NCBI GenBank assembly: GCA_015075625.1
Contig: JABTTZ010000001.1
Location: 1,736,001 to 1,800,000, forward strand
From: Anaerolineales bacterium
GTDB taxonomy: Bacteria; Chloroflexota; Anaerolineae; Aggregatilineales; UBA2796
Direction: 5' to 3'
Length of the DNA stretch: 64,000 nt
Made by a program: the position numbers and the translations under genes. Positions within the stretch are counted from its first letter, which is position 1. Every line of letters begins with the position of its first letter. Under the pieces are notes generated by a model that saw only the letters and a program-made list of their open reading frames with translations, had not been told where the DNA came from and searched no databases. Below are positions 1-63,503 of the stretch, one piece after another.

Positions 1-165
1 ACATTGCAGTACCCTCACTGGTTGGACTGTACCAGACCTCTTACAAGATGTACGGGCAGCGGTAGTCTCTACCCCTTGCTTCCCACAGCCTATCGTAATC
101 CACAAGTATAGTGTGATGACTCGGTTTGTCAACCGCTAGAGAGCAATCTTCTTGGAACATGCTCG
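1..165 (-). repeat. PL element copy 1 (diverged)
   Basis: This is the most decayed of eight copies of a dispersed element of about 165 bp. Read on the minus strand it still has TTGACA (127-132), a 16-bp spacer and TATACT (105-110), plus the conserved end that reads GTGAGGGTACTGCAAT. Most of the sequence between these parts has drifted from the other copies. Its left end may be cut by the window edge. Confidence 0.75.
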
Positions 166-180
166 GCGTTAGGCGGTTGC

Positions 181-396: not shown

Positions 397-561
397 CTAT
401 TGCAGTACCGTCACTGGTTGGTCTGCAACCAGCCTTCTTACAAGAAGGGCGGGCGTCGTTCGTTTACCCCATGATCACCACTGCCTGCCCCATTGGTAAT
501 TATATCGTGATACGTGGGGCGTCAACCATTAAGGGGTCAATCTCCTTGAAAAATACTGTAG
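397..561 (-). repeat. PL element copy 2
   Basis: Full-length copy with its promoter on the minus strand: TTGACG (520-525), a 15-bp spacer and a perfect TATAAT (499-504). This is the only copy with a 15-bp spacer. Its promoter-distal end lies 35 bp before the start codon at 596, but the promoter reads away from that gene. Confidence 0.9.
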
Positions 562-595
562 GCTATTTCGGAAAGACCTTCTACAATCCCCAACC

Positions 596-7835: not shown

Positions 7836-7880
7836 ACTATCCGCCGCTGAACTCAGCTTACACCTTAACCTGAAATGATT

Positions 7881-8044
7881 CTACAGCATTTTTCAACGAG
7901 ATTGACCCCTCAGCGGTTGACAGACCTGTTTATCACGATAGACTTACCGATGGGCAGGCGGTGGTGATCAAGGGTAAACGAACGACGCCCGTCCTTCTTG
8001 TAAGAGGGCTGGTTGCAACCCAACCAGTGAGGGTACTGAATGAA
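7881..8044 (+). repeat. PL element copy 3, reading into the next gene
   Basis: The plus strand carries TTGACA (7917-7922), a 16-bp spacer and TAGACT (7939-7944), then about 95 bp of leader. The leader includes CTGGTTG-caacc-CAACCAG and the GTGAGGGTACTG end. The element stops 2 bp before the ATG at 8047, so it probably supplies promoter and 5' UTR for that gene. Confidence 0.9.
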
Positions 8045-8046
8045 AC

Positions 8047-8763
8047 ATGACGCCTATGCTCTCCTCATCCTCCCTTCATCTTTGGCGCGGACGGCTGGAC
8101 TCCGTTGCGCCGGAGCGCGTTTCTTTTTTGCTCAGCGGGGACGAAAGTGAACGGGCAAAACGCTACCTTTCGCCCCTTGTTCGGCGGCGGTTTATTGTGG
8201 CGCGGGGGCTGCTGCGGATCGTCTTAGGGCGTCTGCTTGACCTCCCGCCTGATCGACTCACCTTTCAGTATGGCGCGGATGGAAAACCCGCCCTTGCCGG
8301 AAAGCCCGCCGCCAGCGGACTTCAGTTTAATCTCGCCCATTCGGATGATTCCCTCTTAATCGGGATCACCCATAGGCGGGCAATTGGCGTTGATATCGAA
8401 CAGATTCGCCCGCTGGACGATCTGAAGGGCATGGCGGGGCATTACTTTAGCCCGGGCGAACATCGGGCGCTCTTAGCCCTGCCCGATTATGCCCGTCAGG
8501 ATGCTTTTTTCACCTGTTGGGCGCGGAAAGAGGCTTACATCAAGGCGCGGGGAGAGGGGATGAAGATTTCGCTGCGCAGCTTTGAGGTCACGGTGACACC
8601 CGGCGGTGCGCCGCGCCTTCTCCGTGCCGAGGGGGACGACCCAACGCGCTGGACGTTCTACGACGCCGCCCCAGAGAGCGGCTATGCGGGGGCGGCTGCC
8701 GTCCATGCCCTGATCAGCGAGATCGAAAGTCCGCTCTGGCACGATATTGAGATCGCCTCATGA
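8047..8763 (+). CDS. 4'-phosphopantetheinyl transferase, Sfp type
   Basis: Transfers the phosphopantetheine arm of CoA onto a serine of acyl- or peptidyl-carrier proteins. At 238 residues it matches the two-lobed Sfp type rather than the short AcpS type. Signature motifs are IGVDIEQIRPLDD (Mg/CoA-binding Asp and Glu) and FFTCWARKEAYIKARGEGM, which holds the W-x-x-K-E-A-Y-x-K block. The start lies 2 bp after a PL element. Its stop overlaps the start of the next gene by 4 bp (ATGA), implying translational coupling with the transporter. No carrier-protein megasynthase is in the window, so its client is not visible. Confidence 0.93.
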   Translation: MTPMLSSSSLHLWRGRLDSVAPERVSFLLSGDESERAKRYLSPLVRRRFIVARGLLRIVLGRLLDLPPDRLTFQYGADGKPALAGKPAASGLQFNLAHSDDSLLIGITHRRAIGVDIEQIRPLDDLKGMAGHYFSPGEHRALLALPDYARQDAFFTCWARKEAYIKARGEGMKISLRSFEVTVTPGGAPRLLRAEGDDPTRWTFYDAAPESGYAGAAAVHALISEIESPLWHDIEIAS

Positions 8764-11856: not shown

Positions 11857-11885
11857 GTTGGGTCCACTACAAGATAAATGAGTTT

Positions 11886-11994
11886 CAGCACCCTCAACGG
11901 GCTGGATGTGGTTGCAGCGCGTTCACGGTGTCTACTGCCGTCTGCAAGATCTCGCGTTTCAGTACCCTCAACGGGGCTGGACGTAGTTGCAACG
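11886..11994 (-). repeat. Two tandem remnants of the PL leader end
   Basis: Two 34-35 bp stretches (11886-11919 and 11960-11994) share CAGTACCCTCAACGGG and end in GTTGCA(A/G)CG. They match the last part of the PL element (hairpin plus GTGAGGGTACTG), read on the minus strand toward the MBL gene. The PL promoter part is missing. Confidence 0.6.
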
Positions 11995-12758: not shown

Positions 12759-13125
12759 CGGCAATTCATCCTGCAATGGGTGGGAGTATGATCATGTTCC
12801 TCATAATAGCACGGTTTCCCTTCAACGGCGAAACGAACTCTTAACGATTTGGCTTAGGAAATAGATATTATCCAATAGTGATAGTGATAGACGTTACGCC
12901 GTTGCCCTCATCCCCCTACCCCCCTTCTCCCAGTGGGAGAAGAGGGAATCCATTTTTTGAGGGGCTTCCCCCTCAAACTTCCCCTTTCGATGAATACAGG
13001 GTAAACACGTTCAACTGCGTAAGTTCTAAGTGATTCAACTGAACGAAATGGCGCATTGAACGTTCTCCACCCCAGACGCATAGATACCTATTGGTCACAA
13101 GGTGGAGTTTCTGCGCCATAAGGCT
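12759..13125. repeat. Family C element copy 1 (MITE-like) in an empty gap
   Basis: From 12891 to 13025 lies a complete C element. Its ends are ACGTTACGCCGTTG and, on the other strand, AACTTACGCAGTTG, giving imperfect terminal inverted repeats. The core is the CCCTCATCCCC...CTCCCagtGGGAG palindrome. The flanks show no gene. Confidence 0.75.
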
Positions 13126-13280
13126 AATTATCTCACCTTACGCACAGACCCTCACCCCCCTAACCCCTCTCCCGCCACGCGGGAGAGGGGGAATGCACTT
13201 TTTTGAGGGGGCTTCCCCCTCAAACTGCCCCTTTCGACGAATACGGGGTGAACAAACCCAACTGCGTAAGGTGAGTAATT
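13126..13280. repeat. Family C element copy 2 with long TIRs
   Basis: The left end (13126-13144) reads AATTATCTCACCTTACGCA. The right end on the opposite strand reads AATTACTCACCTTACGCA. These are inverted repeats of 18-19 bp differing by one base. The core is the usual CTCCCgccacgcGGGAG palindrome with flanking GAGGGGGcttCCCCCTC. An apparent open frame across it is not a gene. Confidence 0.8.
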
Positions 13281-35360: not shown

Positions 35361-35450
35361 GGACGCCGATCACGGCGTTTGGATGGGAAGGAGGGGCGGG
35401 CGTATGCGATGCGCCCCTACACCCCCCTCCGAAGAACTGGGTAATCTCTC

Positions 35451-35600
35451 TTAGGGCTTATGCCGTTGAACGTGTTTCCCTTGTATTCCTCGAACAGGGT
35501 AGATTGAGGGGGAAGCTCCCTCAAAAAAACGCATTCTCCCTCTCCCGTGCAGCGGGAGAGGGGGCTAGGGGTGAGGGCAAGGGCGTAACGCCTAATCTCT
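35451..35600. repeat. Family C element copy 5
   Basis: Ends read TTAGGGCTTATGCCGTTG and, on the opposite strand, TTAGGCGTTACGCCCTTG. The core is CTCCCgtgcagcGGGAG. It splits the first receiver gene from the second, which suggests insertion into the signalling operon. Confidence 0.75.
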
Positions 35601-39040: not shown

Positions 39041-39059
39041 AGTGCTGACAAGAAAGAGA

Positions 39060-39213
39060 ACTTACGCAGTTGAACCTATTTACCCTATAGTTATGGAAAG
39101 GGGACGTTTGAGGGGGAAGCCCCCTCAAAAAATAGATTCCCCCTTCTCCCACTGGGAGAGCGGGTACACGCCGAAGGCGGGTCGCAGGGGATGAGGGCAA
39201 CGGTGTAACGTCT
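39060..39213. repeat. Family C element copy 6
   Basis: Ends read ACTTACGCAGTTGAACC and, on the opposite strand, AGACGTTACACCGTTGCCC. It directly abuts PL copy 4, with 6 bp between them. Confidence 0.75.
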
Positions 39214-39219
39214 AAAGGA

Positions 39220-39381
39220 CTATTGCAGTACCCTCACTGGTTGGACTGCAACCAGCCTTCTTACAAGAAGGACGGGCGTCGTTCGTTTCCCTTGATCGCC
39301 ACCGCCTGCCCATCACCACGTATATCGCCATAAGCGGGGCTGTCAACCACTGAGGGTCAATCTCGTTGAAAAATGCTGTAA
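39220..39381 (-). repeat. PL element copy 4
   Basis: Minus-strand promoter TTGACA (39341-39346), a 16-bp spacer and TATACG (39319-39324). It ends 12 bp before the pdxT start but its promoter reads away from pdxT, antisense toward the receiver/GGDEF gene. Confidence 0.9.
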
Positions 39382-39393
39382 GGATAGTCTGTC

Positions 39394-39978
39394 ATGATCA
39401 AGGTAGGTGTCTTGGCGCTGCAAGGGGATTTCCGCGAACATGCGGCGATGCTCCGTCAGGTGGGGGCAGAGCCGCTGGAAGTGCGCACGCCGGCTCATCT
39501 GGCGCAGGTGGCGGGCTTGATTATGCCCGGCGGCGAAAGTACAACGATGGCAAAGGTGGCAAAGGCAAGCGGCATTTTTGAGCCGCTGCGGGCGTTTTGC
39601 GCCACCCACCCCACGTGGGGAACGTGCGCCGGCGCGATCCTCCTTGCCACCGAGATTGACGGCGAACCGCCCCATCTTGCCCTAATGGCGATGCGCGTCC
39701 TTCGTAATGCCTTTGGGCGGCAGATCGACAGTTTCACCGCCGACCTGACCGTGAAAGGACTCAGCGGCGATCCGCTGCGGGCGGTTTTTATCCGCGCCCC
39801 AATCATTGATTCCGTTGGGGCGGGGGTGGAGGTCTTATCGCGCTTGGACGATGGGCGGATTGTCGCCGCACGGCAGGGACATTTGCTGGCGACATCCTTT
39901 CACCCCGAACTGACCCCCGATACGCGGATGCACGGCTATTTCTTCGACATGGTGCGCGGGGCGCGTTTGGTGGTCTAA
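39394..39978 (+). CDS. pdxT: Pyridoxal 5'-phosphate synthase glutaminase subunit
   Basis: Releases ammonia from glutamine for the PdxS synthase in PLP biosynthesis. The 194-residue class I amidotransferase has the motif IMPGGESTTMAKVAKASG. The nucleophile Cys is in WGTCAGAILLA, and FGRQIDSF and the His-Glu pair in LATSFHPELTPD complete it. The N-terminus KVGVLALQGDFREHAAML is typical. pdxS is usually next door but is not in the window. A PL element ends 12 bp upstream, in the orientation that does not drive it. Confidence 0.95.
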   Translation: MIKVGVLALQGDFREHAAMLRQVGAEPLEVRTPAHLAQVAGLIMPGGESTTMAKVAKASGIFEPLRAFCATHPTWGTCAGAILLATEIDGEPPHLALMAMRVLRNAFGRQIDSFTADLTVKGLSGDPLRAVFIRAPIIDSVGAGVEVLSRLDDGRIVAARQGHLLATSFHPELTPDTRMHGYFFDMVRGARLVV

Positions 39979-40165: not shown

Positions 40166-40210
40166 TGCGTTCGCTTGCGTCCGCCTTCATCTGACGTGGT
40201 AGAATCACCC

Positions 40211-40374
40211 CTACAGTATTTTTCAAGGAGATTGACCCCTGAGTGGTTGACAGCCCCGCTTATGGCGATATACTTACCGATGGGCAGGCGGTAGTGATGA
40301 AGGGTAGCCGAACGACGCCCGTCCTTCTTGTAAGAAGGCTGGTTGTAGTCCAACCAGTGAGGGTACTGCAATAG
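40211..40374 (+). repeat. PL element copy 5, reading into the next gene
   Basis: A clean copy: TTGACA (40247-40252), 16 bp, TATACT (40269-40274). In the leader are CCTTCTT-gt-AAGAAGG (40323-40338) and CTGGTTG-tagtc-CAACCAG (40339-40357), then the GTGAGGGTACTGCAATAG end. It stops 20 bp before the ATG of the glycosyltransferase. Confidence 0.92.
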
Positions 40375-40394: not shown

Positions 40395-41507
40395 ATGCCT
40401 GCCTTCTATCATCACGATCTCTTTAGCGCCCTGCGCGATCTCGGTGCGGACGTTCAGGTGATTTACGCCCGTGCGTTGATCGCGCAGCGGGTGGCGCTTG
40501 GGTGGCAGCCGCCGCCGATGGACACCCTCCCCCAACGGACGCTCACCCCCCACGCGCCGATACGCGATGCGCTCCGTGAGGTATGGCGTTTGCGCCATGA
40601 GCGAACGCGCTGGCATTTTGTCCATGCCATGTGGGGAGAGCGTTCGTTCATGGTCGCCTTGTTATTCATGCGGGCGCTTGGCTTGCCCACCATTCAATAT
40701 TGCGAAGCGCCTAACCCACACCTGCGGCGCTCCCCGCTGAAGCGGACGGCGAAGGCACTCTATGCGCACCTCATCGGGCGCTTGCCCGGCGCGTATATGT
40801 TCACCGTTGCCGAACCCGCCCTTGCTCTTTACCCCACCTTTGGCTACCCCGTCGATCACCTCTATCCGCTCGCCTATCACCGCCGCGCCCGCCCCCTTCC
40901 CAATGGGGAAAAGTCGTCAGGCGTTGAGATCGTTTTCGCCGGACAATTGATCGAACGGAAGGGCGTTGATATCCTGATTCAGGCGATACGCCCGCTCTTT
41001 GCTGAATTTCCCGCCCTGCGTTTGACACTCATCGGCAGCGGGGGAGATCGGGAGGCACTCGAGCGTCTTGCCGCAGATTCGCCAGCAATCACCTTCACCG
41101 GCGCGCTCCCTTACGACCAGATTGAAGGGCGGATAGCCGCCGCGCGGCTGTTCGTGTTGCCCTCGCGGTGGGATGGGTGGGGGCTGGTCGTCAATGAAGC
41201 GCTCTCCGTTGGCGTTCCCGTCCTATGCTCCGATCAATGTGGGGCGGCGGCGGTCATTCGTCGTGGGGTAAACGGGGATATCTTTCCGGCAGAAAATGTC
41301 ATGGCGCTGCGTGAGCGCCTGCGCGAGTTTCTGAGCCACCCGCAACAGTGGACGGCAATGAGCGCCGCCGCCCGCGCCACTAGCGAAACCCTCAGCGCAG
41401 AGCAGTCCGCCGCTTATATGATGCGCGTTTTCCAACACCTAAAAGAGCAGCACCCGACAAAACCCACCCCACCCTGGATAGAGGCGGGGGAGGGGGTCAG
41501 GGGGTGA
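40395..41507 (+). CDS. GT4-type glycosyltransferase (GT-B fold)
   Basis: A 370-residue retaining glycosyltransferase of the GT-B fold. The donor-binding C-domain shows VEIVFAGQLIERKGVDILIQ, LTLIGSGGDREALERLA and LFVLPSRWDGWGLVVNEALS, with the E-x7-E type motif ending GVPVLCSDQCGAAAVI. It probably adds a sugar to a lipid- or polysaccharide-linked acceptor in the cytoplasm. The N-terminus is short: it opens at PAFYHHDLFSALRDLG, missing much of the first strand seen in relatives. The PL element ends 20 bp upstream and may have trimmed the original 5' end. Its stop overlaps the convergent YbbR gene by 11 bp. Confidence 0.87.
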   Translation: MPAFYHHDLFSALRDLGADVQVIYARALIAQRVALGWQPPPMDTLPQRTLTPHAPIRDALREVWRLRHERTRWHFVHAMWGERSFMVALLFMRALGLPTIQYCEAPNPHLRRSPLKRTAKALYAHLIGRLPGAYMFTVAEPALALYPTFGYPVDHLYPLAYHRRARPLPNGEKSSGVEIVFAGQLIERKGVDILIQAIRPLFAEFPALRLTLIGSGGDREALERLAADSPAITFTGALPYDQIEGRIAAARLFVLPSRWDGWGLVVNEALSVGVPVLCSDQCGAAAVIRRGVNGDIFPAENVMALRERLREFLSHPQQWTAMSAAARATSETLSAEQSAAYMMRVFQHLKEQHPTKPTPPWIEAGEGVRG

Positions 41508-46636: not shown

Positions 46637-46709
<73 letters not shown>

Positions 46710-48860: not shown

Positions 48861-48920
48861 CGATGACGAGCGAATCTATAATCCTCTACTCCGTGAACAA
48901 ATCAACCGTTTGCTGTAATC

Positions 48921-49085
48921 CATTCAGCATTTCTCAAGGAGATTGACCCCTTAATGGTTGACAGCCCCACGTATCACGATAGACTTACCAATGGGTTAAG
49001 CGGTGGTGATCACGGGGTAAACAAACGACGCCCGCCCTTCTTGTAAGAAAACTGGTTGCAGCCCAACCAGTGAGGGTACTGCAAA
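48921..49085 (+). repeat. PL element copy 6, reading into the dehydrogenase operon
   Basis: Plus-strand promoter TTGACA (48958-48963), 16 bp, TAGACT (48980-48985). The first leader hairpin is degraded (AAGAAAA in one arm) but CTGGTTG-cagcc-CAACCAG is perfect. It ends 17 bp before the E1-alpha start at 49103. Confidence 0.9.
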
Positions 49086-49102
49086 AAGAAAGACACCCCA
49101 TC

Positions 49103-54688: not shown

Positions 54689-54854
54689 CTATTGCCGTAC
54701 CCTCACTGGTTGGGCGGCAACCATCCTTCTTACAAGAAGGGCGGACGTCGTTCGTTTATCCCCTGATCACCACCCCCTAGCCCATCGGTAACTATATCGT
54801 GATAAGCGGGGCTGCCAACCACTAAGGGGTCGATCTCCTTGAAAAATGCTGTAG
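54689..54854 (-). repeat. PL element copy 7
   Basis: Minus-strand promoter TTGGCA (54813-54818), 16 bp, TATAGT (54791-54796). It reads toward the methyltransferase about 380 bp away. The leader hairpin arms CCTTCTT/AAGAAGG are perfect and the second hairpin has one mismatch. Confidence 0.88.
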
Positions 54855-54933
54855 GAGCTTTGTGATGACCTTTCTGACGATCTACTAAGCGACTATCGCC
54901 ATAGAATAGACCGTTTCTCTAAATGAATGAACA

Positions 54934-63310: not shown

Positions 63311-63341
63311 GCCCCTACGGGGGTTGCACCCTCAACAGCCC

Positions 63342-63503
63342 CTACAGCATTTTTCAACGAGATTGACCCTCAGTGGTTGACAGCCCCGCTTATCACGATA
63401 TACGTGGTGATGGGCAGGCGGTGGCGATCAAGGGAAACGAACGACGCCCGTCCTTCTTGTAAGAAGGCTGGTTGCAGTCCAACCAGTGAGGGTACTGCAA
63501 TAG
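63342..63503 (+). repeat. PL element copy 8
   Basis: Plus-strand promoter TTGACA (63377-63382), 16 bp, TATACG (63399-63404). Both leader hairpins and the GTGAGGGTACTGCAATAG end are intact. It points toward the 3' end of recO, so here it would make antisense or stand-alone RNA rather than drive a gene. Confidence 0.9.

Follow-up and report, generated by a model that had tools for sequence, protein, structure and literature searches.

Among short repeats that spread through bacterial genomes, the Correia elements (CREE, or NEMIS) of Neisseria measure 153-157 bp in their long form, insert at TA and have no transposase of their own; in the excerpts consulted (PMC2649163; PMC10969869) they are described as carrying sigma-70 promoters, as forming hairpins in mRNA and as lying in many copies 5' of genes, and in one case the end of the element coincides with the A of an ATG (PMC2649163). 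RUP of pneumococcus is a short non-coding element that likewise inserts at TA, according to the portion of PMC2229807 available to us. The term mobile promoters (Matus-Garcia 2012; van Passel 2014), as those studies are cited in an excerpt of PMC8049555, refers to repeated promoter sequences spreading within genomes. Because the Correia element shows such features, promoter-bearing MITEs and mobile promoters are in themselves already known.

Here we describe a repeat of ~165 bp, first seen in a 64,000-nt stretch of an Anaerolineales genome (hereafter the window), which is in our judgement probably a non-autonomous, MITE-like mobile promoter whose useful copies are kept by selection. The Correia element is its closest analogue in the way it appears to work, and we claim no relatedness between the two.

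Copies, boundaries and insertion sites

Eight copies of about 165 bp had been predicted in the window, and all eight were recovered (Table 1). Across the 4.68 Mb of the genome, a 23-mer from the right end and a 25-mer from the left end, allowing up to three mismatches, match 93 and 84 times, respectively, against 0 for each reversed-pattern control, and the repetition is therefore far beyond chance. A profile search of 435 kb around these matches returned 98 rows representing 97 copies, as two rows are the halves of one deleted copy. One additional copy found later brings the total to ~98, a lower bound because the profile search covered only the stretches fetched around matches. The statistics below refer to 90 near-complete aligned copies, excluding the truncated ones and the copy found late. 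One pair of copies is identical and 12 of the 90 have a neighbor at least 99% identical, so some of the spread is recent. Being short, dispersed, multi-copy and too short to encode a transposase, the element is in these respects a MITE.

A DNA search of 61 genomes, including the host's own, gave no match in the 60 relatives, one of them of the same genus, and a covariance model of the 3' half gave 0 matches in the 153 other genomes of the order (154 searched, with stricter filters). No relatives of the element were present in the plasmids, phages or viral contigs searched. An exact 20-mer match in a Pseudoalteromonas contig (genome_contigs) was set aside, ~0.5 such matches being expected by chance.

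The left end of the element is sharp. Composition is random as far as position -2, followed by C (82/90), C or T (87/90), T (86/90) and A (88/90) and then by CAGCATTTTT; the full C-C/T-TA (CYTA) precedes 77 of the 90 copies. Since sites without the element show CTA, the left CTA is part of the target. Unlike the left end, the right junction is ragged: TGCAA is followed directly by TA in 54/90 copies, and in 11 of the 36 remaining ones exactly 4 nt precede TA, frequently as a repeat of CAAT or GCAA; judged by eye, these copies are not closely related to one another. Terminal inverted repeats are weak: the tips show ~CAGYA, and the DNA fold adds a longer match with interruptions.

In another repeat, into one copy of which the element has inserted, the paralogous site lacking it reads CAACAGACCC-TA-GTTACCGG, and the filled counterpart CAACAGCCCC-TA-element-TA-GTTACCGG, so that a target-site duplication is seen both as TA on either side and in comparison with the unfilled site. 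In the same-genus genome, the upstream gaps of glgA and holA measure ~33 and ~21 nt, respectively, and are free of the element, with the ends of the upstream genes alike. This short gap led us to reject the glgA copy as an ancestral native leader. The upstream regions of folD, the carbamoyltransferase gene and pgm are not alike in that genome, and these sites are therefore uninformative. Unfilled sites and near-identical copies at distant loci bear out the earlier proposal that the element spreads as a unit.

Several arrangements nearby deserve mention in their own right. A tandem duplication with a 16-nt step affects the right end of one copy (C1:1074674-1074704, L090; GAGGGTACTGCAATAC-GAGGGTACTGCAATAG). 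In the window, another repeat family (12953-13270, 35447-35563 and 39057-39150) has ...CAACTGCGTAAGTCC-TA at one end and the reverse, TA-GACGTTACGCAGTTG, at the other; judged by these ends it looks like a second TA-flanked MITE, and it serves as a landing site for the mobile promoter element. Between positions 39220 and 40374, a gene that we presume from its sequence to be pdxT lies between two inverted copies, in a layout resembling that of a composite transposon.

Table 1. Copies of the element in the window and features of the focal copy (positions in the window)
Feature	Position	Strand	Remark
Focal copy, TA-CAGTATTT...ACTGCAA-TA	40209-40374	+	
-35 box, TTGACA	40247-40252	+	
-10 box, TATACT	40269-40274	+	16-nt spacer
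Weak helix A (GGGC with GCCC) and loop	40282-40320	+	paired in 93.9% of cells
Hairpin B, CCTTCTTGTAAGAAGG	40323-40338	+	
Hairpin C, CTGGTTG-TAGTC-CAACCAG	40339-40357	+	
Conserved tail, TGAGGGTACTGCAA	40358-40371	+	Shine-Dalgarno-like GAGGG at 40359-40363
Group 1 glycosyltransferase gene downstream of focal copy	40395-41507	+	start 23 nt past the element
Most diverged, old copy	1-169	-	long GTG-started frame begins 1 nt beyond it, outside the window
Copy	397-563	-	
Copy before phosphopantetheinyl transferase gene (8047-8763)	7879-8044	+	
Second copy, 1 kb from focal copy, inverted	39220-39383	-	points away from pdxT-like gene (39394-39978)
Copy before dehydrogenase E1 component gene (start 49103)	48920-49087	+	
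Copy	54689-54856	-	
Copy nested inside another repeat	63340-63503	+	counterpart site without the element reads CCCTAGTTACCGG

Promoter, leader and neighboring genes

The predicted TTGACA-like and TATACT-like boxes are present, and in the focal copy, with its 16-nt spacer, they agree with the sigma-70 consensus at 11 of 12 positions. The complete promoter lies within the repeated unit and is kept in most of the 90 copies. The ~100 nt downstream of it hold two well-conserved hairpins, followed by the tail TGAGGGTACTGCAA. Both hairpins, CCTTCTT/AAGAAGG and CTGGTTG/CAACCAG, are real, as had been proposed, and the arms of hairpin C diverge by 0-4% compared with 7-52% in its loop. A further helix in the original prediction, GGGCAGGCG with CGCCCGTCC, fared poorly: many copies have an extra T, and the family prediction keeps only GGGC/GCCC. 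The tail, described as invariant, is nearly but not fully so.

Covariation for the RNA folds is weak. We count seven double-change cells that keep pairing, in six pairs, where shuffled alignments give 1.0 and 0.9; slid controls, however, give 2-10 cells in 2-6 pairs. The RNA fold of the focal copy is no better than that of shuffles (z -0.55). Comparison with Rfam, suggested as a check, gave no match to the element at the gathering score, and the only match in the window is a tRNA gene at 46637-46709 on the minus strand. Since a search of the focal copy revealed no terminator at its right end, a promoter with a 5' leader is expected there rather than a free small RNA, and a leader role is likely for the ~100-nt part that would be transcribed.

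The position of the element relative to genes, called with our own codon-usage caller, is biased on its right side. There the nearest gene is co-directed in 62 copies, convergent in 26 and absent in 2 (62:26 among the 88 with a gene, binomial p = 1.6e-4); on the left, no such bias is seen. Seventeen copies have a start codon 0-6 nt past their right end. Placing each of the 62 co-directed copies at random in its own gap gives an expectation of 5.6, and 0 of 20,000 simulations reached the observed count; for two copies (C4_167212 and C1_1743881) the distance was assigned by hand once the frames had been inspected, and the count is 15 without both. At the left end, 0 start codons lie within 6 nt compared with 2.6 expected. 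The end of a convergent gene is equally close (0-6 nt) in 5 copies, and many copies besides the 26 convergent ones have a gene only far off.

Pfam matches, for which 30 of the 41 listed proteins were scanned, indicate that the co-directed targets are mixed in function. They include glgA-like, folD, DNA polymerase III delta (holA), carbamoyltransferase, E1 dehydrogenase and MraY-like genes, as well as transaldolase/PGI, aldehyde dehydrogenase, histidine phosphatase, phosphopantetheinyl transferase and others. In the holA copy, GAGGG ends 8 nt before the ATG, which fits the distance of a Shine-Dalgarno sequence. In the focal copy it lies ~31 nt before the ATG, too far for such a role, and this copy would thus act only as a promoter.

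For comparisons of age and conservation, we divided the copies into 30 gene-linked (co-directed start within 60 nt, one assigned by hand), 26 convergent and 34 others; the copies are mutually related, and all p values in this paragraph are therefore approximate. Gene-linked copies are older, as their nearest relatives are more distant (median nearest-neighbor distance 0.071 versus 0.022 for convergent copies, p = 8e-4). Private changes in the promoter boxes, scaled to those in the left part, spacer and leader loop, are relatively fewer in gene-linked copies (16:268) than in convergent (14:95, p = 0.02) or other copies (28:167, p = 0.002). Stems and tail show no contrast between the classes (p 0.2-0.3). 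Over all copies, changes are fewer than in loops and spacer for hairpin B (p = 3e-10), the arms of hairpin C (p = 7e-15), the tail (p = 1e-14) and the -35 box (p = 2e-3), and the -10 box is kept no better than background; the view that promoter and hairpin are the best-kept parts thus holds for all of these but the -10 box. Since hairpins and tail are conserved in every class, their conservation may owe as much to mobility as to the leader, and the hairpins could act in mobility, in mRNA stability or in both.

Proposed mechanism and alternative explanations

In the mechanism that we propose, a transposase acting in trans, likely TA-specific, would insert the element at C-C/T-TA, leaving TA on both sides. 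The inserted element would then start outward transcription from its own sigma-70 promoter, and the ~100-nt leader with its two hairpins would run into the next gene. In copies whose right end adjoins a start codon, GAGGG could serve as a Shine-Dalgarno sequence. Copies that give a gene a useful promoter would be kept by selection, and others would decay or vanish.

The element could alternatively be a plain MITE with an incidental promoter, its hairpins and tail being recognition sites of the transposase and its position before genes reflecting tolerated insertions. Hairpin arms and tail are well kept in convergent copies too (private rates 0.012, 0.008 and 0.015), so their conservation is independent of a downstream gene, and 88 of the 90 copies lie outside called genes, both as a plain MITE would have it. 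We nevertheless regard this explanation as unlikely, given that start codons are enriched at the right end and not at the left, and that gene-linked copies are older with a better-kept promoter. Orientation bias, start-codon docking and better promoter retention where a gene follows also agree with the original prediction that the element is more than a plain repeat.

A different way of moving, compatible with a promoter role, would be that of an IS200/IS605-like single-strand element, with CYTA as the 5' target and the right-end hairpins as the recognition structure. The asymmetric ends, CYTA before most copies, the best-kept parts (hairpins and tail) near the right end and four Y1 transposase matches in the genome are all consistent with it. 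The one Y1 locus that we read (L111, 1150-2250) sits, however, in an array of a different repeat, in the manner of REP-linked transposases. The TA on both sides, better explained by duplication, also speaks against this way of moving, as do the seven transposase loci scanned, which show no element-like ends apart from one weak profile match (E 0.014, L112). On balance we hold it to be slightly less probable still than an incidental promoter. The palindromic repeats that make up the array at L111 (CAAGCCCCGTAGGGGTGG..., CCCGCCGCTAAAGCAGCGGGC) occur frequently in the window as well (repeat families D1-D3); with the Y1 (REP-type) gene inside it, the array resembles a REP/RAYT system.

The host genome yielded no intact TA-type transposase, and the only IS630-type matches are three DDE fragments, none with ends resembling those of the element. 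An autonomous parent was also sought through unpaired element ends. Two of the candidates so obtained, C1:1831419 and C2:206653, are truncated copies and a third, C2:884850, is a normal one; at C2:1269284 only the left end matches, and C2:1264145 is chance-like. No autonomous partner with the same ends was seen in this genome; it may have been lost or reside elsewhere.

We consider it very unlikely that the copies form a regulon, in which a native leader, riboswitch-like or bound by a protein, was duplicated by recombination before co-regulated genes. The well-kept hairpins with their few compensatory changes and the many copies directly before start codons would suit such an origin, but the functions of the targets are mixed, 26/88 copies have no co-directed gene, and neither the fold of the single copy nor Rfam lends it support.

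Slightly more doubtful again is a link to CRISPR, in which the 3' hairpin and tail would imitate the host's CRISPR repeat, so that Cas6 binds or cuts the leaders of dozens of mRNAs, or the RNA acts as a decoy against the CRISPR machinery. If true, a mobile promoter would tie housekeeping genes to this machinery or decoy it. The genome contains a Cas6 match, and the tail part GAGGGTACTG is identical to part of the host CRISPR repeat (GTTGCAACCACATCCAGCCCGTTGAGGGTACTGAAAC). The likeness spans ~24 nt (p ~1e-3) and was noticed after the fact. Shuffled sequences attain its alignment score 19 and 11 times in 20,000 for the two directions (~0.1%), and genomic windows without the motif GGGTACTG do so in 11 of 2,464 cases; the top score among these windows, 58, suggests that some may contain parts of CRISPR repeats. 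As a post hoc result of a loose pattern search with 10 control matches, it is given little weight.

Arrays of the repeat GTTGCAACCACATCCAGCCCGTTGAGGGTACTGAAAC are found at L141 (333-1404, 15 units) and L079 (~649-1344, 10 units). The minus strand of the window (11882-11993) holds two degenerate host repeats ~74 nt apart with one spacer, a decayed or mini array, and at C1:1733097 a copy of the mobile promoter is inserted beside a CRISPR leader with a single repeat.

Least credible is a small-RNA family in which every copy yields a free RNA of ~100 nt, which could draw on the promoter and hairpins of nearly every copy and on stems kept even without a co-directed gene, but is opposed by the focal copy, whose right end shows no terminator-like site, and by start-codon docking, which fits a leader and not a free RNA. 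The earlier claim that the element makes an RNA, either a leader or a small RNA, would thus hold in its first form, to which orientation bias, docking and promoter retention all point.

As a mobile promoter kept by selection, the element would be a natural example of promoters being replaced within a single lineage. It combines unfilled sites in a same-genus genome, an age series of copies and a contrast between gene-linked and unlinked copies, through which the rewiring of housekeeping genes by mobile promoters, and their retention by selection, become testable outside Neisseria. For this question, holA and glgA are example genes.

Comparison with known systems

The literature searched, in the portions accessible to us, contained no report of this element. 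Like the RNA anti-CRISPRs and solitary CRISPR repeats described in the available part of PMC10651486, it has a promoter and a tail part identical to part of the host's CRISPR repeat; the placement of its hairpins differs and the likeness is limited to ~24 nt, and on this evidence it is not a member of that group. With RUP and other IS630-linked MITEs, as far as the excerpts describe them, it shares its short length, lack of coding capacity and location at TA, but RUP has ends in common with an IS630 element, and for the present element a partner of this kind was not found in its genome. Compared with mobile promoters as presented in the citing paper, it is tied to one lineage and has fixed ends and a hairpin leader.

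The likeness to CREE, judged by the published descriptions in the parts consulted, extends to length, TA target, lack of a transposase, promoter, mRNA hairpins and copies before genes. The same descriptions also set the two apart, since CREE have 26-bp inverted repeats and promoters at their ends that partly need host sequence. The aligned ends of the present element contain no 26-bp inverted repeats of this description, its inverted repeats being minimal, and it has one complete, one-way internal promoter and a leader with a Shine-Dalgarno-like sequence. The element is thus new to the collections searched, and what distinguishes it is the combination of one complete one-way promoter with a leader.
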